A DNA stretch of 47,632 nt, taken from positions 1 to 47,632 of the forward strand of contig JAIPIG010000014.1 in NCBI GenBank assembly GCA_021734805.1, given 5' to 3'. This stretch comes from Simkaniaceae bacterium. GTDB taxonomy: Bacteria; Chlamydiota; Chlamydiia; Chlamydiales; JACRBE01. Shown here piece by piece: positions 30,892-31,503 of the stretch. The notes under the pieces are model-generated. The model was given only the letters and a program-made list of their open reading frames with translations, searched no databases and had not been told where the DNA came from. Position numbers and translations under genes: made by a program. Positions within the stretch are counted from its first letter, which is position 1. Each line of letters begins with the position of its first letter.

Positions 30892-31503
30892 TCAATAGTT
30901 TCTGATTAAAGAAATAAGTTTACCCTGGATTTTGATCTCATGGGGTCTAAAGATCTCAGTCGGGGTGTAAGAGGTAAAGCAGAGAGGCTCTAAGCGGATA
31001 AATGAGTCTTCAGGGAAATAACGCCTAAGTAGGGTAGAGCCGCTTGAGAGGGTAAAAAGACCGATTTCTTTAGATTTGAGAGAGGAAGAGGCTTCAATAA
31101 GGAGTAAATCTAAATTTTGAATATGTTCATGAATTAAGCTATCCCCCCGCACTTGTAAAATATAACTTTGATGGGGAGTCGGAACTTGTGACTTAGGAAT
31201 GGAATAGGTATGCTCAATTGAGGGGAAAAACTCAATAGGATGAGAGGAGACAAGGGTTCCGACAATGGGAATCTGAGCAAGTTCTGAAGCTTTTTCAATG
31301 AGGTTTAGCGATCTGGCGCAATTTTTTCGTGCAGTAATCAGCCCCTTTTTTTTAAGGGAGGTGAGATGCTGGTGTACGGTAGCAAGAGAGCGATAGCCAA
31401 AATGCACTTTGATCTCATCTAAACTTGGTGAATAATCATGCGTTGCGATAAACTCGCGAATAAAATGAAGCAGTTCTTTTTGCTTTTGAGTCATTCCTTT
31501 CAT
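30892..31503 (-). CDS. lexA: LexA-family repressor, apparently without self-cleavage residues
   Basis: A 203-residue LexA-like protein. The N-terminal winged helix is typical (MTQKQKELLHFIREFIATHD, DEIKVHFGYRSLATVHQHL). The C-terminal latch domain has the nucleophile Ser (S122 in VRGDSLIHEH). However, where the scissile Ala-Gly is expected (IPIVGTLV, then residues 86-87) there is Ser-Ser. The region of the general-base Lys (SGSTLLRRYFPED, 155-166) contains only Leu/Arg. Both essentials for RecA-stimulated autolysis seem lost, so it may repress constitutively or have another trigger. The start is MKGMTQ at 31503; the second Met is an alternative. It is divergent from rmuC, only 20 bp between starts. 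C. trachomatis, as I recall, has no LexA. Confidence 0.85.
   Translation of the reverse strand: MKGMTQKQKELLHFIREFIATHDYSPSLDEIKVHFGYRSLATVHQHLTSLKKKGLITARKNCARSLNLIEKASELAQIPIVGTLVSSHPIEFFPSIEHTYSIPKSQVPTPHQSYILQVRGDSLIHEHIQNLDLLLIEASSSLKSKEIGLFTLSSGSTLLRRYFPEDSFIRLEPLCFTSYTPTEIFRPHEIKIQGKLISLIRNY

Follow-up and report, generated by a model that had tools for sequence, protein, structure and literature searches.

LexA proteins that cannot be cleaved are already known. The LexA of Synechocystis sp. PCC 6803 has no Ala-Gly and no Ser, is not cleaved, and regulates outside the SOS response, possibly acting through phosphorylation (PMC3091678, PMC7567884). The E. coli LexA mutant K156R is cited in PMC5760743 as uncleavable and SOS-deficient. 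Francisella FddR, HdiR, UmuDAb and the LexA-like proteins of Bacteroidetes have been reported to be switched by damage through RecA-mediated self-cleavage; of these, Ala-Gly and Ser-Lys are both retained in FddR and in the Bacteroidetes proteins (PMC13148647, PMC8565304). In the structures of the superfamily, a conserved Asn in the loop after the base strand interacts in every case with both the nucleophile and the base; in E. coli LexA this loop is 169-PENSE-FKP-176, and the Asn is N171 (PMC12984324).

Chlamydia has been placed among the bacteria without LexA (a 2026 paper, PMC13148647). We found no paper on the LexA of environmental chlamydiae in the open full-text literature, subscription papers being largely outside this scope, and a parallel, phylum-wide rise of non-cleavable LexA in intracellular bacteria appears to be undescribed. 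Here we examined a lexA orthologue on a stretch of 47,632 nucleotides from a Simkaniaceae bacterium (the window). Its features are collected in Table 1.

Table 1. Features of the lexA locus and of its surroundings in the window
Feature	Position	Strand	Basis
lexA orthologue, 203 aa, self-cleavage residues lost	30892..31503	-	TIGR00498, PF01726 + PF00717; tree clade
Winged-HTH DNA-binding domain, residues 1-64, intact	31312..31503	-	PF01726 1.7e-16, 60.2 bits
S24-fold C-terminal domain (dimerisation), fold kept	30913..31266	-	PF00717, AF2, 1jhe match
S86-S87 codons at the scissile Ala84-Gly85 position	31243..31248	-	alignments to solved LexAs and orthologues
S122 codon, nucleophile Ser119, kept	31138..31140	-	alignments to solved LexAs and orthologues
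R160 codon, aligned with the general base Lys156	31024..31026	-	orthologue alignment, folding MSA
Loop EPLCFTSYTP replacing PENSEFKP, Asn171 missing	30961..30990	-	alignment; Asn role from PMC12984324
rmuC, divergent from lexA, 20 bp apart, conserved neighbour	31524..32840	+	PF02646 2e-93; synteny
pssA-like CDP-alcohol phosphatidyltransferase, convergent, conserved neighbour	28909..29745	+	PF01066; synteny
APH/choline-kinase-like phosphotransferase, signal-peptide-like N-terminus, between lexA and pssA	29746-30834	-	
DUF6088/AbiEi-like gene then AbiEii, type IV toxin-antitoxin-like pair beside rmuC	33006-34683	+	
Ribonucleotide reductase large subunit, 1452 aa, intein-like insert in the reductase domain	24248-28606	-	

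Results

The window protein is a LexA orthologue with an intact fold

The window protein matched the NCBIfam lexA equivalog TIGR00498 over its full length with 123.6 bits, against a cut-off of 110.95. In a profile search it was the sole LexA/S24 match in its own 1.8-Mb genome, the assembly of which is about 96% complete. Pfam placed LexA_DNA_bind at residues 1-64, in agreement with an earlier note on this DNA, which had described the DNA-binding domain as intact, and Peptidase_S24 at residues 80-197 (PF00717, 47.3 bits).

We further evaluated the fold. As a single-sequence fold gave a poor C-domain, an alignment-based AlphaFold2 model was used instead (39 sequences as input), and its mean pLDDT was 93. 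Using VIA-align, nearly the whole chain could be matched to 3jso_A (Z 15.1), and the C-domain to that of LexA 1jhe_A (Z 14.3, rmsd 2.6, 122 residues). The DNA-binding domain gave a fold match to 1lea (Z 12.3). Since the model superposes on LexA structures, the residue register is no artefact of a broken fold. The protein presumably dimerises, as suggested by the fold and the conserved residues, and presumably also binds DNA.

The residues for self-cleavage are changed in the window protein

The window LexA was aligned to solved LexAs and to 55 chlamydial orthologues (Ala84, Gly85, Ser119, Lys156 and Asn171 are numbered as in E. coli LexA). For LexA and UmuD of E. coli, the reference residues were entered by hand, and at the key sites they agree with the alignment of solved LexAs and with PMC12984324. 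Both alignments placed Ser-Ser (residues 86-87) at the scissile Ala-Gly and aligned Ser122 with the nucleophile Ser119, as the earlier note had read them. The loss of the general-base Lys, claimed there as well, was also seen, with the refinement that the position is occupied by Arg160 and is not simply empty. The base strand reads TLLRRYFPED, versus a consensus of TIIKRYYPEG in ten close orthologues, and column 160 of the folding alignment is almost invariantly Lys. A slip of the alignment was considered as the reason for the missing Lys and was dropped, as there is no Lys anywhere in residues 147-190 and nearly all the other sequences have Lys in column 160. In the solved LexA of Thermotoga maritima (PDB 3k2z), the Lys aligned one residue after E. 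coli Lys156 (TLAKFY versus TVKRLK), and the base position itself is occupied by Ala.

A further change, absent from the earlier list, was the loss of Asn171. Thus, when compared with self-cleaving S24 proteins, the window LexA has the nucleophile Ser, while an Ala-Gly or Cys-Gly bond, the Lys and Asn171 are absent. Since the bond, the base and Asn171 are all changed, and since K156R is cited as uncleavable, the window LexA is very probably unable to self-cleave, as had been proposed from the sequence. It is conceivable that Ser122 together with Arg160 or another base cuts the Ser-Ser bond slowly, perhaps only with the cell's own RecA; the nucleophile and the fold are kept, and the genome does encode RecA. 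We consider this very improbable, as E. coli LexA with Arg at this position is cited as a form that cannot be cleaved (PMC5760743), the scissile bond and Asn171 have gone too, and some orthologues have lost the Ser itself.

The cleavage residues are eroded across the Chlamydiota

A contig scan with the window protein alone as query found no relative. A search with a lexA model had matches in 126 of 234 Chlamydiota genomes, and 55 of these, the lexA orthologues, were used. Aligning the window protein with these LexAs of environmental chlamydiae, the check proposed in the earlier note, gave the residue assignments described above.

We observed that Ser119 was lost in 25/55 orthologues, where either a gap or one of nine other residues (G, A, E, T, F, N, L, H, M) stood in its place. 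Lys156 was replaced in 18, by R in 10 of these and by G, M, S or C in the other 8. Ala-Gly was kept in only 17/55, and A84, G85, S119 and K156 were all kept in 10/55. Asn171 was present in 27/27 reference LexAs but in 9/55 chlamydial ones, and in 0/10 of those with Ala-Gly, Ser and Lys intact. The complete set is thus found in 0/55, and the ten orthologues that retain Ala-Gly, Ser and Lys might still cleave. As the lexA model favours intact proteins, these counts are more likely to understate the erosion than to overstate it. The change is not peculiar to the window genome and is spread over the phylum. Among the least eroded sets was that of G052 (L052 2748-3338) and its clade, where Gly-Gly, Ser, Lys and Asn171 are kept; in its near relative G053, Asn replaces the Ser.

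When the columns of the 55 orthologues were ranked by conservation, column 119 was 115th and column 84 was 156th among 193. The columns most relaxed in comparison to other LexAs include N171, A84, T154 and S119, which belong to the catalytic apparatus. The equivalents of S39, D129 and R197 were invariant in 55/55, and Ser39 of the recognition helix, variable in other LexAs, was the most tightened column in the chlamydial set.

The orthologues formed one clade (SH-aLRT 97) in a tree of 54 of the 55, the shortest being omitted. The minimum number of changes on this tree was 15 at S119, 9 at K156 and 11 at Ala-Gly. With a two-state count that trusted only branches with support of at least 95, the minimum was 5 for Ser, 3 for Lys and 3 for Ala-Gly. 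Independently of the topology, the nine residues that replace S119 imply a minimum of nine substitutions.

A mixture of paralogues in the chlamydial set was considered and dropped, given the one clade and the common synteny. The sole paralogue (genome G043, contig 47; L003 1495-2139) is a second lexA with Ala-Gly, Ser, Lys and Asn kept, which groups with LexAs of other phyla, outside the chlamydial clade; G043 also carries an orthologue of the chlamydial type, in which Arg replaces the Lys. Another HTH-S24 group of Chlamydiota (L073, L075 and L076, families f27 and f24) has Ser and Lys, and Asp-Asn or Asp-Ser at the scissile bond, where the alignment is unsure.

As controls, we examined LexAs of other phyla and UmuD-like proteins of the Chlamydiota. 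Ala-Gly, Ser, Lys and Asn were kept in 24/24 non-chlamydial LexAs (retrieved by DNA-binding-domain patterns, and including one from Verrucomicrobia and one from Brocadiia) and in 40/40 chlamydial UmuD-like proteins; the ranking of the outgroup loci used similarity over the whole protein, and the UmuD set consists of the best-scoring matches, both of which favour intact proteins. Residue loss in the chlamydial LexAs is thus beyond chance. The presence of UmuD was unrelated to the intactness of LexA (5/10 versus 30/45, Fisher p 0.47, with gene lists compiled by hand).

Purifying selection acts on both domains

We estimated dN/dS in the eight closest orthologue pairs, which lie outside the window's own branch (this has no close relative among the genomes used). 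The values were 0.03-0.13 where unsaturated, for both the N-terminal and the C-terminal domain, and are approximate since dS was often saturated. The low dN/dS, the invariant Ser39, D129 and R197 and the relaxed catalytic columns together form the pattern that one would expect of a DNA-binding protein with no further need for proteolysis, and not that of a pseudogene.

The opposite reading would be a decaying relic, where SOS was lost in intracellular life and a functionless lexA is drifting to loss. The listed genomes of group f4 had no lexA match, nor did many other genomes, which would fit this reading; so would the long branches (25-40% identity among orthologues) and the shortened protein in G040 and G057. 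However, both domains are constrained in the unsaturated comparisons, the orthologue matches are full-length with no internal stops, the synteny is conserved in many families and the DNA-binding S39 does not vary, so that we consider a relic unlikely. The chlamydial LexA looks like a retained regulator and not a decaying gene and, as judged from sequence, it is likely still to act by binding DNA.

No SOS regulon was recognised around the chlamydial LexA

RecA was found in the window genome. UmuD and a Y-family polymerase were not found in this assembly of about 96% completeness (profile search in the case of UmuD). We also scanned 16 chlamydial genomes, including that of the window, for the Gram-positive and the proteobacterial SOS boxes, a scan that a diverged chlamydial motif could escape. 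GAACN4GTTC occurred at 8-23 sites per genome, always fewer than the reversed-pattern control, and CTGTN8ACAG at 3-24 sites, mostly fewer than this control.

The regions upstream of recA and rmuC, where the earlier note had suggested looking for operators, gave neither a shared box nor a convincing palindrome. Counting dyads in 29 intergenic regions on the rmuC side revealed only those of A/T runs, at the level of shuffled sequences. A palindrome-constrained Gibbs sampler scored slightly above four shuffles on these 29 regions, with an A/T-rich motif that we do not trust, and on nine PAP2 upstream regions its scores were within those of shuffles. The recA upstream regions of about 27 genomes, read by eye, had no common box. 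Nothing among these results (no UmuD, no Y-family polymerase, no enrichment of SOS boxes) points to a surviving link between this LexA and an SOS regulon. The description of the window LexA as a rewired SOS switch was only half right.

Damage could still be sensed if the protein were degraded, or cut in trans by another protease. IrrE, for example, cuts DdrO. In the case of HdiR, Clp completes its destruction (PMC8565304). Such a protease would account for relaxed self-cleavage residues alongside purifying selection. However, no candidate was recognised in the conserved neighbourhood, where many flanking ORFs carry no identification, and SOS boxes are not enriched; we consider this route quite unlikely.

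The lexA neighbourhood suggests a probable link to membrane-lipid metabolism

Where flanking sequence was available, the usual neighbours of the orthologues are a divergent rmuC, a PAP2 phosphatase gene (PF01569) just upstream and a convergent pssA. The PAP2 gene overlaps or closely precedes lexA in most relatives and is absent in the window. This arrangement in the relatives suggests that lexA is probably co-expressed with membrane-lipid metabolism. Whether the targets of the chlamydial LexA are themselves local or lipid-related is a guess from synteny, and a doubtful one.

The APH/choline-kinase-like gene of the window was not seen at this position in the other lexA loci examined. The insert in the ribonucleotide reductase has Hint_2 and LAGLIDADG_3 domains, at about residues 552-840.

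Discussion

Together, these observations have led us to favour a chlamydial LexA that folds, dimerises and binds DNA without RecA-stimulated self-cleavage, and we think it likely that it is a damage-independent repressor. Selection on the cleavage machinery would have been relaxed across the clade, while the DNA-binding domain and the fold of the C-domain would have stayed under purifying selection. With selection so relaxed, Ala-Gly, Ser119, Lys156 and Asn171 would have been lost piecemeal and repeatedly. The product would be a repressor that acts as a dimer and has an S24 domain that is dead; the activity of this repressor may be set by its amount or by another signal, and not by RecA or DNA damage. 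The set of regulated genes may be small and possibly local.

LexA may also have been converted once, in the clade's ancestor, to a new regulatory role that is independent of RecA, with many parallel losses in the cleavage machinery afterwards, while many of these genomes kept an intact UmuD. The new role could concern membrane-lipid or developmental-cycle genes, given the coupling to PAP2 and the position between rmuC and pssA. We put this forward tentatively, as somewhat less than an even chance.

The usual view is that intracellular bacteria have lost LexA. Here, much of the Chlamydiota beyond the known pathogens keeps LexA and repeatedly loses its switch, and an intact UmuD, present in many of these genomes, serves as an internal control. 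LexA in environmental chlamydiae thus seems to have been retained as a regulator that binds DNA but is no longer coupled to the classical SOS switch. These proteins form a natural series of cleavage-dead LexAs, which can reveal the parts of the C-domain that are needed apart from proteolysis, and they allow one to ask what LexA controls once it is deaf to DNA damage.

When compared with the canonical LexA (TIGR00498; E. coli and B. subtilis type), the window LexA has the same domain order, profile, winged-HTH, S24 fold and nucleophile (Ser122). It differs from it in having no Ala-Gly, an Arg for the Lys and no Asn171, and no SOS-box signal was found with it. Francisella FddR, HdiR, UmuDAb and the Bacteroidetes LexA-like proteins are likewise S24-family regulators from settings where SOS is altered. 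The positions altered in the laboratory Ind- mutants of LexA (G85D, S119A, K156R/K156A) match the natural chlamydial changes; however, these mutants were engineered or selected, and they are dominantly SOS-off in hosts with an SOS regulon. The closest precedent is the Synechocystis LexA, since both are LexA orthologues without Ala-Gly or a complete Ser-Lys dyad. In Synechocystis, the Ser is changed to Asp and A-G to G-G, while the window LexA keeps the Ser and loses the Lys. The Synechocystis protein is moreover the exception among the cyanobacteria compared, whereas the chlamydial loss is spread over an intracellular phylum.
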